Shown one piece after another: positions 53,695-62,504 of a stretch of DNA of 64,000 bases. How positions within the stretch are numbered: the first letter of the stretch is position 1; the number at the start of each line of letters is the position of its first letter. Origin of the DNA: Puniceicoccaceae bacterium K14 (lineage in GTDB: Bacteria > Verrucomicrobiota > Verrucomicrobiia > Opitutales > Opitutaceae). The position numbers and the translations under genes were made by a program. The stretch covers positions 1-64,000 of the forward strand of contig JAKYXN010000009.1 of NCBI GenBank assembly GCA_022538095.1, written 5' to 3'. The notes below the pieces were generated by a model. The model was not told the origin of the DNA, did no database searches, and saw only the letters and a program-made list of their open reading frames with translations.

Positions 53695-54144
53695 ATGAAA
53701 GTAGCAACAGAAACAAAAGAAAACGTAGAGCTTTGGTCGAGGCCGATGGAATTTTCCTTGCCCAAAGGGCTCATCGGACTGTCCGATGTTAACAAGTTTG
53801 AAATGCTGGTGAATGAGGAGGAGCTCCCGTTTATGTGGATACGAGGAATTGATCGTCATGAGCTCGGATTTGTCGTGATTGAGCCTTCCCAAATTTTGAA
53901 CGATTATATAATTGAAATAAGCGATGAAGATATTGCAGCGCTGGGGATTCAAGATTCTCAGGATGCGTTGGTCTTGAATATCGTAACGATTCCTAATGGA
54001 GAGTCATTGGAATCTGCTACTGTAAATTTGATTGGCCCGTTAGTTATAAACAAGAAGACGTTGGTTGGGAGACAGATAATTACCTGTAACTACCAAAAGT
54101 ATACGTCAAAGCACCCATTGTTGCAAAACAGCGTCAGTAACTAA
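53695..54144 (+). CDS. fliW: Flagellar assembly factor FliW (CsrA antagonist)
   Basis: 149 residues. FSLPKGLIGLSDVNKFEML, FVVIEPSQILNDYIIEIS and LVGRQIITCNYQKYTSKHPL match FliW. In Bacillus FliW binds both flagellin and CsrA and relieves CsrA repression of flagellin translation. Located directly before csrA and flagellin 1, the canonical neighbourhood. Confidence 0.95.
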   Translation: MKVATETKENVELWSRPMEFSLPKGLIGLSDVNKFEMLVNEEELPFMWIRGIDRHELGFVVIEPSQILNDYIIEISDEDIAALGIQDSQDALVLNIVTIPNGESLESATVNLIGPLVINKKTLVGRQIITCNYQKYTSKHPLLQNSVSN

Positions 54145-54171
54145 CGATTTAAATACCAAGGAAGGAATGCC

Positions 54172-54453
54172 ATGTTAATACTTTCACGTAAAGTAAATGA
54201 AGCGGTCGTTATCGCTGATAATATTGAAATAAAAATTACACGTGTTGAGGGGGACGTTGTACGTCTCGGAATCGATGCCCCGCGTTCAATCCCGATTGTG
54301 CGTAAGGAACTTTTTGAAGAACTGGAGAAAACGAATCGAGAAGCGGTAGTGTCGCCCAATGCTGCCCACAAAACTGCGGTCAAGCCCAAGCTCGCAGGAC
54401 TGGCGAAGAATTTTTCTTCTAAGAAAAAGGATAAGGAAGTCACCGGATCTTGA
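54172..54453 (+). CDS. csrA: Translational regulator CsrA with extended tail
   Basis: 93 residues; the core [20 protein letters not shown] with [20 protein letters not shown] is CsrA. About 30 extra residues at the C-terminus are Lys/Ala/Ser-rich; CsrA is usually 60-75 residues. Its own leader contains ACCAAGGAAGGAATG, two AGGA-type CsrA sites over the ribosome-binding site, so autoregulation is plausible. Binds GGA motifs in mRNA, here probably the flagellin leaders. Confidence 0.95.
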
Positions 54454-54497: not shown

Positions 54498-55406
54498 ATG
54501 GTTATCAATACGAATAGCGCAGCCGTAGACGCAGCGTCTACTTTAAATAGGACGAATGAAGCGATGCATCAATCGCTCACGCGATTGAGCTCAGGTATGA
54601 AAATTGTGAGGCCGGCGGACGATGCTGCTGGGCTCTCTATTTCAGAAAAACTTGAAGCCCAAAGTACACGTATCAATGCTGCTAGAGTGAATACGCAGAA
54701 CGCGGCATCTCTTGTGCAGACAGCAGACGGCTTTTTATCTAGCATGAATGGGATTTTGGATCGTATGAGTGAGTTGTCTATTCTTGCCAAAGACGCGACA
54801 AACAATTCATCTGATTTAGAATTGTATCGAGTGGAGTTTGATTCGCTCAAGGACCAACTCCGTGACATCGTCGGAAATGGAGACAATGGTACAGACTCGT
54901 TGCCTAATTGGAATACTTCTAACACAGAGCCGAGTGGTAAATTCAACGGAATTATCCTGTTCGGTGCTCGTGAGGATATGACATTTGTTGTTGGGACTTC
55001 GGGTGACCAAACGATGTCTATTGCCGAAACCAATTTACGCGAAGTAGGAGGAGCTTTCTCAGACATACTCTGGGATAGCGATGTGGGAGGGGATTCTGCT
55101 AGTGGTGGACAGGACAATATTGAAATCGATAGCCCTGACGCTGTCGAAGCGTTAAAGAATGCTCTAAATGTAGTTGCTTCTGAGCGTGCAAAGGTCGGTG
55201 CAGTTCAATCTCGCCTGGAAACAGTCAACGCTCAGCTAACAATTGAATCTGAGAATTTGGAAGCAGCGAATTCGCGTATCCGCGATGTGGATGTTGCAGA
55301 CGAATCGACAAAATTGGCTCGCAGCAATATCCTGATTCAATCCGGAACGGCTATGTTGCAACAAGCAAATTCTCTTCCAGAAAACGTTTTGCGCCTTTTA
55401 AGGTAG
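54498..55406 (+). CDS. fliC: Flagellin 1 (divergent)
   Basis: 302 residues. N-terminal MVINTNSAAVDAASTL, LTRLSSGMKIVRPADDAAGL; C-terminal DVDVADESTKLARSNILIQS and the end LPENVLRLLR. Complete D0/D1 ends, short middle. AAGGAG 7 nt before the ATG is a strong ribosome-binding site. Less like flagellins 2 and 3 than they are to each other (VRPADDAAGL versus VNPxDDAGGL; a longer central part with the insert NGDNGTDSLPNWNTSNTEPS). Cotranscribed with csrA, so exposed to different control. Confidence 0.95.
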   Translation: MVINTNSAAVDAASTLNRTNEAMHQSLTRLSSGMKIVRPADDAAGLSISEKLEAQSTRINAARVNTQNAASLVQTADGFLSSMNGILDRMSELSILAKDATNNSSDLELYRVEFDSLKDQLRDIVGNGDNGTDSLPNWNTSNTEPSGKFNGIILFGAREDMTFVVGTSGDQTMSIAETNLREVGGAFSDILWDSDVGGDSASGGQDNIEIDSPDAVEALKNALNVVASERAKVGAVQSRLETVNAQLTIESENLEAANSRIRDVDVADESTKLARSNILIQSGTAMLQQANSLPENVLRLLR

Positions 55407-59732: not shown

Positions 59733-60548
59733 TTAACCGAGTAGTCTTAGAGCGATTTGGCTCGAAGAATTCGCTTGTGTAAGCATGGAAGAACCAGCTT
59801 GAACAAGGATATTCGCACGTGCCAACTGAGTCGACTCTGATGCTACGTCCACGTCGATGATACGTGAGTTTGCAGCTTCGAGGTTTTCTTTGTTCGTAGT
59901 CAACATCTCAGATGCGAAGCTCAATCGGCTTGATTGAGCACCGTTGGTCGCACGAAGTGTCGCAACGTTCTCAATGGCGTCTGTGATATCGCTGAGGTCC
60001 GTATCAGTTAGTTCAGTAGTACCAAGAGTAAGATCGGTTCCCACTTGATTCTCTAGATCTGCCTGATCGATTGTAACGGATTGAGTACCATCTTCAGATG
60101 TATTTACCGTCAGAGAAGCAGCACTAGCTGCATCTGTGAACAATGACACTCCGTTGAAGGCCTCGCCTGTTACGGCATCTAACTGCGACTGAAGTTCTTG
60201 GAACTCCGTGTTGTAGTTTTCAATGTCAGTTGTGTTCTTAGTAACATCTTCACTCAAGGTCTTGAGTTCAGACATACGGTCCAAGATACCAGCGGCTGTT
60301 TGGAAACCACCATCTTGAGTTTGTAGGAACGACTGAGCATTCGCGATGTTTGTATTAACTGCTTCTGTACGTTTGATGGCTGCAGACATCTTCATAGATA
60401 CCGCAAGTCCACCCGCGTCATCCGCTGGGTTTACGATCTTGGAACCACTTGACAAGCGGTTCAAGCTCTTTTGCAACATTGAGTTGCTCGTATTGAGGTT
60501 GTTAGTAGCGACTGTTGCCGCTGAGTTGGTGTTTATTGTAACTGCCAT
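59733..60548 (-). CDS. Flagellin 2
   Basis: 271 residues, short flagellin without the D2/D3 hypervariable bulk: N-terminal VTINTNSAATVATNNL, LNRLSSGSKIVNPADDAGGL; C-terminal DVDVASESTQLARANILVQA and SSQIALRLLG. Good Shine-Dalgarno AAGGATG 7 nt upstream in a CAAGGAUG context typical of a CsrA site. Separate from the main flagellar cluster on the opposite strand. Its promoter was not found. Confidence 0.95.
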   Translation of the reverse strand: MAVTINTNSAATVATNNLNTSNSMLQKSLNRLSSGSKIVNPADDAGGLAVSMKMSAAIKRTEAVNTNIANAQSFLQTQDGGFQTAAGILDRMSELKTLSEDVTKNTTDIENYNTEFQELQSQLDAVTGEAFNGVSLFTDAASAASLTVNTSEDGTQSVTIDQADLENQVGTDLTLGTTELTDTDLSDITDAIENVATLRATNGAQSSRLSFASEMLTTNKENLEAANSRIIDVDVASESTQLARANILVQAGSSMLTQANSSSQIALRLLG

Positions 60549-60571
60549 TTTATATCATCCTTGATTTAAGC

Positions 60572-60589
60572 TGCGACATCCGTGCCGCA
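60572..60589 (-). promoter_or_regulatory. CsrA-type hairpin in flagellin 2 leader
   Basis: In the mRNA: TGCGGCA-CGGA-TGTCGCA, a 7-bp stem with one G-U pair and GGA in the loop, 24 nt upstream of the ATG. ACGGAUGU resembles the CsrA consensus ACARGGAUGU. A second site (CAAGGATG) is the Shine-Dalgarno itself. Confidence 0.6.
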
Positions 60590-60592
60590 CGT

Positions 60593-60637
60593 GTCTGAGA
60601 AAGCGTCAGACTGCGCCTCTCCTCCAATGGTGGAGGA
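60593..60637 (-). other. Two further hairpins in the flagellin 2 leader
   Basis: GTCTGA/TCAGAC (60593-60611) and TCCTCCA/TGGAGGA (60620-60637) lie in tandem upstream of the CsrA hairpin. They may structure or stabilise the leader. Confidence 0.4.
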
Positions 60638-61051
60638 AAATTGTATCGAGGCATCTCCTGGTGGGAGGGCTTCGAAGAAAATTCATTTTTAATCATGAGC
60701 TTCCTTGGTTGGTTGATTACATGGTCTTACAAAAAGCAAAGACGGGCTTTGCTTGAGTCCTATGAGTTTGCAAGGGGCGAGCTCATGGGATGAGACAGAA
60801 CCTTGGTTTTTCACTTCGCGAATATTTGAGTCCATATGTATTGATCTTTTGGTTTCGCTCTTAGAAGCCTATTCCTGTGGGCATGGTTGAGCCTTTTGTG
60901 GAATGGTGGGCCGTCTTGAACTTTAGTTAACCGTGAGATCAAGCGATGCACCCAGACGCAGTGTCTACGTTTCGCGCTCGACGTATTTTCGAGCGGGATG
61001 CGTGGGCGAGCAACAGAGCTCCGCCTTATGCAGTAATTATTTGCGTATGTG

Positions 61052-61098
61052 ATCATCCTTGATTCGGCAATTTTTGATTAACACCTCGTCCTTGAGGT
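61052..61098 (-). other. Second copy of a flagellin-type leader segment
   Basis: On the minus strand: hairpin ACCTC-AAGGAC-GAGGT (61083-61098) with GGA in the loop, then AATCAAGGATGAT (61052-61064), a 13-base exact copy of the flagellin 2 ribosome-binding region (60554-60566). No flagellin follows. The gap 60549-61425 (877 bp) also holds CGCTCGA/TCGAGCG (about 60975-60994) and hairpins near 61250-61310; I see no gene there. Confidence 0.45.
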
Positions 61099-61379
61099 TT
61101 TTAGAGTATCTCGTAAACACGATCGCTCCGGAGAAGCATATCGAACACAGTTAGTCCTAGGTTTAGCGTTTTGAGCTAAATTACTCATCGTGTAGAACTG
61201 ACTCGATCTTTGGTGGTAGCGTTACGATTTCTGCGTAGTATCTGAGTTCGACTTCCAACTAATATTAGGAAGTAGGTTCAGTGCCTACTGATTCGACTGA
61301 TGGAGAAATTCGTCTCCAACCTGAAGAATTTGAAACGCTGTAACTATGGATTGGTTACGACTATAGACTTTGGGAAAGC

Positions 61380-61404
61380 GCCCCCCGCCGCTAAACGGGG
61401 AGGC
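61380..61404 (-). terminator. Probable terminator of flagellin 3
   Basis: GC-rich 8-bp stem with one bulged A (61380-61387 against 61396-61404), loop of eight bases, followed on the minus strand by GCTTTCCC: only a short T-run. Lies 22 bp after the flagellin stop. Confidence 0.5.
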
Positions 61405-61425
61405 TCATGTCATATAGTAATATAA

Positions 61426-62241
61426 CTAACCCAAAAGTTGTAGTGCTACCTGCGAAGAAGAGTTCGCTTGTGTCAACATAGAGGCTCCTGCCTGTACGAG
61501 CACGTTATATCGTGCTAGCTTAGTCGATTCCTGAGCTACATCCACATCGATGATACGAGAGTTCGCTGCTTCGAGGTTTTCACCGTTTGTAGTGAGCATC
61601 TCTGATGCAAACGTGAGACGGTTCGACTGCGCGCCATTAGTGGCTCGTAGTGTAGCGAGGTCTTCGATGGCAGTTGTGATCTGGTCAATCGTTGGATCGT
61701 CTAGCGATGTCGCAGCAGTGCCTATGACATCGTCTAATTCCTCCGCTAGATTACCTTGCGTGATATTAACATCACCTTCACCTGCCTCGTTGGTCGCTAC
61801 ACCGAGTGTCGTAACTGTAGCTGCTGATGTGAATAGAGAAACATCATTGAATTTCTCTTCAGATATTTTCTCAAGCTGATCCTGGAGTTCGAGAAACTCG
61901 GTGTTGTAGTTGGCGATATCTGTGTCATTCTTAGTCACATCCTGACTGAGGATCTTGAGTTCTGAGATTCTATCTAGAACCTTAGAGGCGGTTTCGTAAG
62001 CGCCGTCTTGCGTTTGCAAGAACGATTGCGCATTCGCTATGTTTGTATTGACTGCTGCCGTACGATTGATCGTAGCTGTCAATTTCATAGACACCGCTAG
62101 TCCACCCGCATCATCGGATGGGTTTACGATCTTCATTCCACTAGACAGTCTATTGAGACTGTTCTGAAGCATGTTGTTGCTTCGCGATAGGTTATTGTTC
62201 GCAACCGTAGCTGCGCTATTGCTGTTTATTACTACTGACAT
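61426..62241 (-). CDS. Flagellin 3
   Basis: 271 residues from the ATG at 62241, preceded by AAGGAAG five bases upstream. An in-frame ATG at 62289 would add 16 residues translated from the leader hairpin and is rejected, since flagellins begin with the conserved VINSNSAATVANNNL. N-terminal LNRLSSGMKIVNPSDDAGGL and C-terminal DVDVAQESTKLARYNVLVQA. Closely related to flagellin 2 along the whole length: a recent duplication is likely. Transcribed from its own sigma-28 promoter. Confidence 0.95.
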   Translation of the reverse strand: MSVVINSNSAATVANNNLSRSNNMLQNSLNRLSSGMKIVNPSDDAGGLAVSMKLTATINRTAAVNTNIANAQSFLQTQDGAYETASKVLDRISELKILSQDVTKNDTDIANYNTEFLELQDQLEKISEEKFNDVSLFTSAATVTTLGVATNEAGEGDVNITQGNLAEELDDVIGTAATSLDDPTIDQITTAIEDLATLRATNGAQSNRLTFASEMLTTNGENLEAANSRIIDVDVAQESTKLARYNVLVQAGASMLTQANSSSQVALQLLG

Positions 62242-62263
62242 TTTAACTTCCTTGTTAATGTTT

Positions 62264-62279
62264 GCGACGTCCGTGTCGC
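62264..62279 (-). promoter_or_regulatory. CsrA-type hairpin in flagellin 3 leader
   Basis: In the mRNA: GCGAC-ACGGAC-GTCGC, a 5-bp stem with ACGGAC in the loop, 22 nt before the ATG. The Shine-Dalgarno context ACAAGGAAGT also resembles ACARGGAUGU. Same order as in flagellin 2. Confidence 0.6.
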
Positions 62280-62338
62280 GACGAGCCATTTTTTGGTGGT
62301 GTTGGCTGCACCGATAACGGGTTAAGTTATGCCTAGTA

Positions 62339-62364
62339 GTATCGGCCCTCTACGAAGAACTTTA
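62339..62364 (-). promoter_or_regulatory. Sigma-28 (FliA) promoter of flagellin 3
   Basis: On the minus strand TAAAG (TAAA at 62364-62361), a 14-nt spacer and GCCGATAC (62346-62339): 7 of 8 in the -10 element, spacing one short of the usual 15. Predicted leader of about 90 nt contains the CsrA hairpin. Confidence 0.75.
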
Positions 62365-62504
62365 GAGGAAAGCGCGTTTTTTTTGAGTTTATTCCGCAAG
62401 CCAATGAGTAAATTCCACATGAAACGTCTGAGTTTTAGACTCTAAGGTTGTTTCTTGTAGGATGCGATGTAGCTTAAAAAACTAAACCGAATCTATCACT
62501 GAAT

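Follow-up and report, generated by a model that had tools for sequence, protein, structure and literature searches.

CsrA-type hairpins and a predicted H-type pseudoknot in flagellin leaders of Verrucomicrobiota

The closest described counterparts of the leaders studied here are those of flaA in Campylobacter jejuni and hag in Bacillus subtilis. The C. jejuni flaA leader has two GGA hexaloops placed 21 nt apart, and both its repression by CsrA and the antagonism of FliW have been shown (PMC4894983). In both species, N55 is a key residue of CsrA for the binding of FliW (PMC7829508). The regulation proposed below is of this known kind.

We analyzed a window of 64,000 nucleotides from the genome of Puniceicoccaceae bacterium K14 (5.7 Mb, 97% complete, 358 contigs). 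The best named relatives of its flagellins are found in a Pelagicoccus MAG (78% identity), in Opitutales/Opitutaceae MAGs, and in Verrucomicrobiae bacterium DG1235; Pelagicoccus belongs to the Verrucomicrobiota. Two flagellin genes lie on the minus strand, at 59736-60548 and 61429-62241, and each encodes a protein of 271 aa matching PF00669 and PF00700. We set the start of the second one at 62241 by homology to its relatives and did not use the ATG of the longest open reading frame, at 62289. This ATG (62287-62289, minus strand) overlaps the 3' strand of the pseudoknot described below, and gene callers may pick it as the start. On the plus strand, 6-9 kb from these genes, are fliW (53695-54144; PF02623 with E 2.2e-33, best solved relative the FliW of 5dmb) and the adjacent csrA (54172-54453; PF02599), the single csrA found in the genome. 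Both partners of hag/flaA-type control are present in this genome, side by side. The pair is followed on the same strand by another flagellin (54498-55406), which does not have the leader.

The CsrA of the window has R44, which we take to be a functional residue, and N55. The two residues are kept in all 16 proteins that could be extracted (the window and 15 relatives), three of 19 loci having yielded no CsrA. The residue at position 51 is L in the CsrA of the window and I in most relatives; V or I is given for it in PMC7829508. The C-terminus is longer here, in a protein of 93 aa. The initial annotation of this locus had pointed out this tail, together with the diderm setting. Neither is new, since an extended C-terminus is ordinary for CsrA proteins that have FliW as a partner (PMC7652899, PMC7829508) and since a two-GGA leader with FliW control had already been shown in a diderm, for flaA of C. 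jejuni (PMC4894983).

The leaders of both minus-strand flagellins, hereafter the 60548 and 62241 leaders, have a CsrA-type hairpin, P3, followed by a smaller hairpin on the Shine-Dalgarno, P4. P3 is TGCGGC[ACGGAT]GTCGCA in the 60548 leader (60572-60589, minus strand) and GCGAC[ACGGAC]GTCGC in the 62241 leader (62264-62279, minus strand). P4, the predicted second CsrA site, is ATC[AAGGAT]GAT at 60554-60565 and TTAAC[AAGGAA]GTTAA at 62243-62258 (both minus strand), with GGA starting at 60560 and 62251, respectively. The GGA-to-GGA distance between P3 and P4 is 21 nt in both leaders. For both long leaders, the nested fold of minimum energy includes P3, and the small P4 hairpins can form (AUC[AAGGAU]GAU and UUAAC[AAGGAA]GUUAA). 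That of the 62241 leader forms in a 51-nt fold and is absent from a 96-nt fold, where its 3' strand pairs with the 5' end of the leader. A scan of the window for an A-N-GGA hairpin followed by a GGA and a start codon returned both flagellins and three other positions with weaker stems. Each leader has two predicted GGA sites at bridging distance, one of them on the Shine-Dalgarno, as in hag and flaA. From the sequence, control of both flagellins by CsrA and FliW through these putative sites is well supported. The initial annotation is thus right on several points: the coordinates of the hairpins exposing ACGGA, the second GGA within each Shine-Dalgarno, the hag-like logic of two predicted CsrA-type sites, and the nearby fliW-csrA pair. 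Taken as a whole, its interpretation is partly supported.

The folding z-scores of the two leaders are -2.23 and -1.05, which makes single-sequence folding weak evidence for these hairpins. Since folding alone proves nothing, we compared relatives. Flagellins were searched in 57 genomes, including that of the window, resulting in matches in 30 genomes and 78 fetched leaders. Group A comprises the flagellin leaders that are long enough, window pair included (n=61), and group B is a contrast set of 19 leaders, from the window flagellin beside csrA and from divergent paralogues in relatives. We found P3, as a GGA hairpin of at least 4 bp in the right place, in 53 of the 61 group-A leaders, compared with 10% of dinucleotide shuffles. 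In group B it was found in 2 of 19 leaders, and the strict pseudoknot (see below) in 0 of 19. The stem of P3 varies around a constant GGA loop, with 32 distinct 5-bp stems among 151 leaders, and two-sided changes were seen at all six counted pairs, the outermost of which is unpaired in 32 of 53 leaders. These compensatory changes, with the GGA loop kept, bear out the selection on the stem structure that had been suspected from the window alone. As to a loss of the stem in close relatives that keep their flagellins, the hairpin is retained in the 53 leaders above and lacking, by our descriptor, in the other 8.

In 133 of 151 leaders, 18-22 nt separate the two GGA, and P4 has a stem of at least 3 bp, mostly 3 bp, in 135 of 161. 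Named loci supplied 65 new leaders, of which 55 show P3 and 45 contain the strict pseudoknot. By eye, many P4 from a second order of this class read GUA[AAGGAA]UAC, with the same hexaloop on a different stem. Three leaders of Spartobacteria/Chthoniobacteraceae MAGs (L177, L183, and L191) have no P3 by the descriptor and carry ACAAGGAAGU at the Shine-Dalgarno, which suggests a variant that is reduced or of another form. The P3 stem has 5-6 pairs in many leaders; ligands obtained by SELEX mostly have four pairs or fewer (PMC7652899), and we counted this difference against the reading of P3 as a CsrA site. One could suppose that these hairpins stabilize the mRNA or serve as ribosome standby structures that bind no CsrA, since leaders rich in GC form folds easily, the ordinary Shine-Dalgarno accounts for one GGA, and the other could resemble it by chance. 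We regard this as very unlikely: the GGA in the P3 loop is constant while its stem changes, the spacing fits bridging by CsrA, and the leader co-occurs with csrA (see below).

The initial annotation missed what lies upstream of P3, namely a conserved pseudoknot, a hairpin called P1 (with a third GGA in some relatives), and a sigma-28-like promoter in front of the 62241 flagellin. The predicted pseudoknot is of the H type and stands directly 5' of P3: the loop of a hairpin, P2, pairs with a strand further 3', which in most cases stops 4-6 nt short of P3. In the 62241 leader (62284-62312, minus strand), where the descriptor, the alignment, and the swap test described below all point to it, P2 is formed by GGTG (62312-62309) and CACC (62301-62298), and the loop AGCCA (62307-62303) pairs with TGGCT (62288-62284), or, in RNA letters, GGUG[C AGCCA A]CACC with UGGCU. 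In the 60548 leader (60593-60616, minus strand), it was identified from the descriptor and the sequence, with P2 formed by GCG (60616-60614) and CGC (60605-60603) and the loop GTCTGA (60611-60606) pairing with TCAGAC (60598-60593), that is GCG[CA GUCUGA]CGC with UCAGAC. Wobble pairs can lengthen this P2 by drawing in the final bases of P1.

A loose search for pseudoknots was dropped because it did not separate real leaders from shuffled ones (28.0 vs 24.5, sd 6.7). It was replaced by a descriptor bound to the geometry and by a test of cognate against swapped strands. As these were chosen after reading the leaders, the count made with the strict descriptor on the first set is not blind; the named loci and the second order came later. 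In this first set, 40 of the 53 P3-bearing leaders have the strict pseudoknot, as do 22 of the 27 P3-bearing genomes, compared with 19% of shuffles; 13 of the 53 leaders were missed.

The whole structure was then assessed in an alignment, A2, of 53 of 62 group-A leaders. The nine left out (L046, L054, L059, L060, L085-L088, and L092) were too short or unlike the others, and their exclusion favours structure in the figures that follow. Over P2, the knot, P3, and P4, 79.1% of the cells are paired, compared with 66.6% in shuffled alignments and 32-45% in slid ones. Of 19 pairs, 18 show two-sided changes (12.4 on average in shuffles), and the covariation score is 0.377, against 0.171 for shuffles. 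The count of pair types over the whole structure is weaker, as 29 of 500 shuffles reach it. Fifteen columns are invariant or nearly so, one in P2 and the rest at P3 and P4. These results show that the structure of the leaders is under evolutionary constraint. For the pseudoknot alone the picture in this MAFFT alignment is blurred: 70.2% of cells are paired at the true register and 59.2% one column off (-1), and neither the counts of changed pairs nor those of pair types exceed the shuffles.

Because of this blurred register, we used the cognate/swap test, in which each P2 loop is scored against its own downstream strand and against those of other leaders. For the 52 leaders of the first set, the cognate score is 14.5 and the swapped one 9.4, a difference reached by 0 of 2000 permutations. 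For the named loci, where a covariance model holding no pseudoknot served to align 94 distinct leaders, the scores are 14.8 and 10.1 (again 0 of 2000). In the second order of the class, with 23 leaders, the difference is smaller (12.8 for cognate and 11.6 for swapped strands, 3 of 5000 permutations), and the letters of the knot vary much less there than in the window's family. Either helix can also be drawn nested, and in both window leaders the nested fold of lowest energy contains the helix between loop and strand and lacks P2, as would be expected of two mutually exclusive hairpins that switch the access to P3 and never make a pseudoknot. Such a switch is unlikely, given that the loop lengths of most leaders fit one H-type knot (L1 of 1-2 nt, L2 of 0, L3 of 4-10) and that, among 96 leaders preselected for carrying the strict knot, a rough energy estimate with an assumed fixed penalty of 9.6 kcal/mol puts the knotted form below the nested one in 81. 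A loop that pairs with a downstream strand, pairs that co-vary, and fitting loop lengths make the H-type pseudoknot a predicted part of the flagellin leaders, with weaker evidence when the knot is taken alone.

Upstream of the pseudoknot, the P1 hairpin is ATAAC/GTTAT in the 62241 leader (62314-62330, minus strand), from its sequence and its pairing over 53 leaders, and TTTTCCTCCA/TGGAGGAGAG in the 60548 leader (60617-60640, minus strand), from sequence and fold. In the 53 leaders, 75.2% of the P1 cells are paired, compared with 59.9% in shuffles. Neither P1 loop of the window has a GGA, and P1 was rejected as a third CsrA site there. An A-N-GGA is present in P1 of 7 of 25 leaders outside the window's family (about 1.5% in shuffles) and of 4 of 114 leaders in this family and the named set (0.9% in shuffles), so a third site may be ancestral or may have been gained several times. 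P1 exposes ACGGA or AAGGA in L059, L061, L062, L064, L082, L087, L090, and L201, and some leaders have up to three GGA hairpins. Further upstream of the 62241 flagellin is the pattern TAAAGTT, 11 nt, GCCGATA (62340-62364, minus strand), which we take to be a near-consensus sigma-28 promoter. Similar patterns were found in 10 of the 61 group-A leaders, compared with 0.24% of shuffles, and in 0 of the 19 group-B leaders.

To describe the distribution of the leader, we used a covariance model, R1, built without the knot. In the genome of the window, where 150 of 484 first-look candidates were scored, only the two flagellin leaders match at E<=0.01 (E 5.1e-12 and 2.5e-7). The third-best match (54068-54174, plus strand), with a non-significant E of 4.9, ends exactly at the start codon of csrA. 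The Shine-Dalgarno of csrA is CAAGGAAGG, which is partly common to two relatives (L106 and L112), and autoregulation of CsrA at this leader is possible. Among 132 genomes of the order, 17 have R1 matches at E<=0.01; stricter filters were used here and 31 candidates were scored in each genome, which makes misses likely. By position or translation, 34 of the 36 matches precede flagellins. One of the other two (G129) stands before an ORF of 98 aa, with a flagellin match 424 bases further, and the other (G019, E 0.006) was not accepted, as no recognisable gene, and hence no flagellin, lies downstream.

In a sample of 387 genomes of the phylum, with 10 candidates scored per genome, 25 had matches. 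Weak matches in G243 and G255 were not accepted, since no recognisable flagellin follows them. In G449, from another class of the phylum, a match (L238, E 7.6e-4) precedes a flagellin-like ORF and includes GGC[AAGGAU]GCC and ATCAAGGAAGAAAT; by this genome, the leader element may reach beyond the class. In the second order of the class, 13 of 117 genomes had matches (45 in total, up to 8 per genome), and 23 distinct leaders from 15 loci precede proteins that look like flagellins by eye. The place of the leader is before flagellins.

Three genomes of this second order (G544, G575, and G609) have 7-8 matches each, so that CsrA might be titrated by their flagellin leaders. Titration of CsrA is known for the leader of flaA in C. 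jejuni (PMC4894983), and genomes with matches often have 2-4 of them, with up to 8 in one. It is conceivable, if rather unlikely, that the leader is mainly a sponge, in which several flagellin leaders titrate CsrA off other messages and self-repression is secondary; P4, placed on the Shine-Dalgarno, would be needless in a pure sponge.

Small riboswitches of the preQ1 and SAM/SAH types use pseudoknots (PMC11625349, PMC7367207), and the knot could in principle be a metabolite aptamer gating the access of CsrA or of the ribosome. We consider this extremely improbable. Rfam 15 gave no match over the curated threshold in the window and none at E<=1 in the leader loci of 20 relatives; the weak matches in 60450-62500 (DUF2815 RNA with E 4.6, sR12 with E 9.6) are at chance level and were rejected. 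In addition, the pairs of the knot vary freely in the window's family, and 34 of 36 order-sample matches are at flagellins.

The order sample also shows that the leader co-occurs with csrA-fliW. Of these 132 genomes, 27 have csrA, 25 have fliW, and 42 have a match to Flagellin_N. The motif is present in 16 of the 25 genomes with flagellin and csrA, compared with 1 of the 17 with flagellin and without csrA (Fisher p 0.0003, uncorrected for kinship). Nine of those 25 genomes have no match to the model. The exception is G053, a MAG of 250 contigs where the motif was found and neither csrA nor fliW was seen; two genomes of its genus have both.

Many relatives retain the shape of the leader with different letters, so the folded leader probably does act in the control of flagellum production. 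We think it likely that these leaders are structured elements controlling flagellin translation, with a CsrA dimer on P3 and P4, relief by FliW, and the pseudoknot as architecture. A late promoter of the sigma-28 type would produce a leader of about 90 nt, folding as P1, the H-type pseudoknot (P2 and the pairing of its loop with the strand), P3, and P4. The CsrA dimer would hold P3 with one RNA surface and P4 with the other, after a bridge of some 21 nt, and this bridging would hide the ribosome site and repress translation. Once the hook is complete and flagellin is exported, freed FliW would bind the CsrA helix that includes N55 and translation would start. Bridging with FliW relief is the most likely mechanism because it is that of flaA in C. 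jejuni and hag in B. subtilis (PMC4894983, PMC7652899). In the window's family, the shape of the pseudoknot is kept with little of its sequence, which speaks for an architectural or protective role and against a ligand pocket. The pseudoknot would most likely be an architectural wall that sets P3 beside a rigid helix; it would also prevent mispairing of the strand that precedes P3 and may protect the 5' end.

More tentatively, the leader could be a new family of cis-regulatory RNA in Verrucomicrobiota, in which the H-type pseudoknot is combined with the CsrA hairpins into a single composite platform. The knot would then be active and not a passive spacer, folding with P3 or presenting it (in some families also P1, with the third GGA), and the loading of CsrA or the relief by FliW would depend on it. 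We think this possible, though not probable. If the control proposed here is true, CsrA-FliW control of flagellin, known from Bacillus and Campylobacter, extends to Verrucomicrobiota. As the knot keeps its shape and its letters drift in the window's family, compensatory mutants can separate structure from sequence, and whether the architecture of the RNA tunes bridging by CsrA is thus directly testable.

Several known systems resemble these leaders in part. Like that of flaA in C. jejuni, they belong to a diderm and have two GGA stem-loops (SL1 and SL2 there) 21 nt apart, with FliW as the antagonist there and, by prediction, here (PMC4894983). In C. jejuni fliW is not beside csrA, whereas in the window it is. 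The term pseudoknot occurs 0 times in the flaA paper (PMC4894983), and the window leaders, compared with it by description, have a predicted one. They share with hag of B. subtilis two CsrA sites (predicted here), one of them on the Shine-Dalgarno, and presumably the relief by FliW (PMC7652899). B. subtilis is a monoderm, unlike the host of the window, and the likeness to its hag leader is again one of description. We know of no pseudoknot in the latter. The glgC leader of E. coli also has a hairpin as anchor, from which a CsrA dimer bridges to the Shine-Dalgarno, as we predict here; it differs in that it precedes another gene and in that E. coli CsrA is controlled by small RNAs and not by FliW (PMC7652899). 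The preQ1 and SAM/SAH riboswitches likewise have a pseudoknot in a 5' leader (PMC11625349, PMC7367207), whereas no conserved aptamer letters were seen in the window's family, and no Rfam match over threshold was found here. Among the matches listed from Rfam and the open-licence PMC literature, we found no description of a pseudoknot together with CsrA hairpins. Compared with these systems, what appears to be new is a conserved, predicted pseudoknot joined to CsrA hairpins across two orders of one class.
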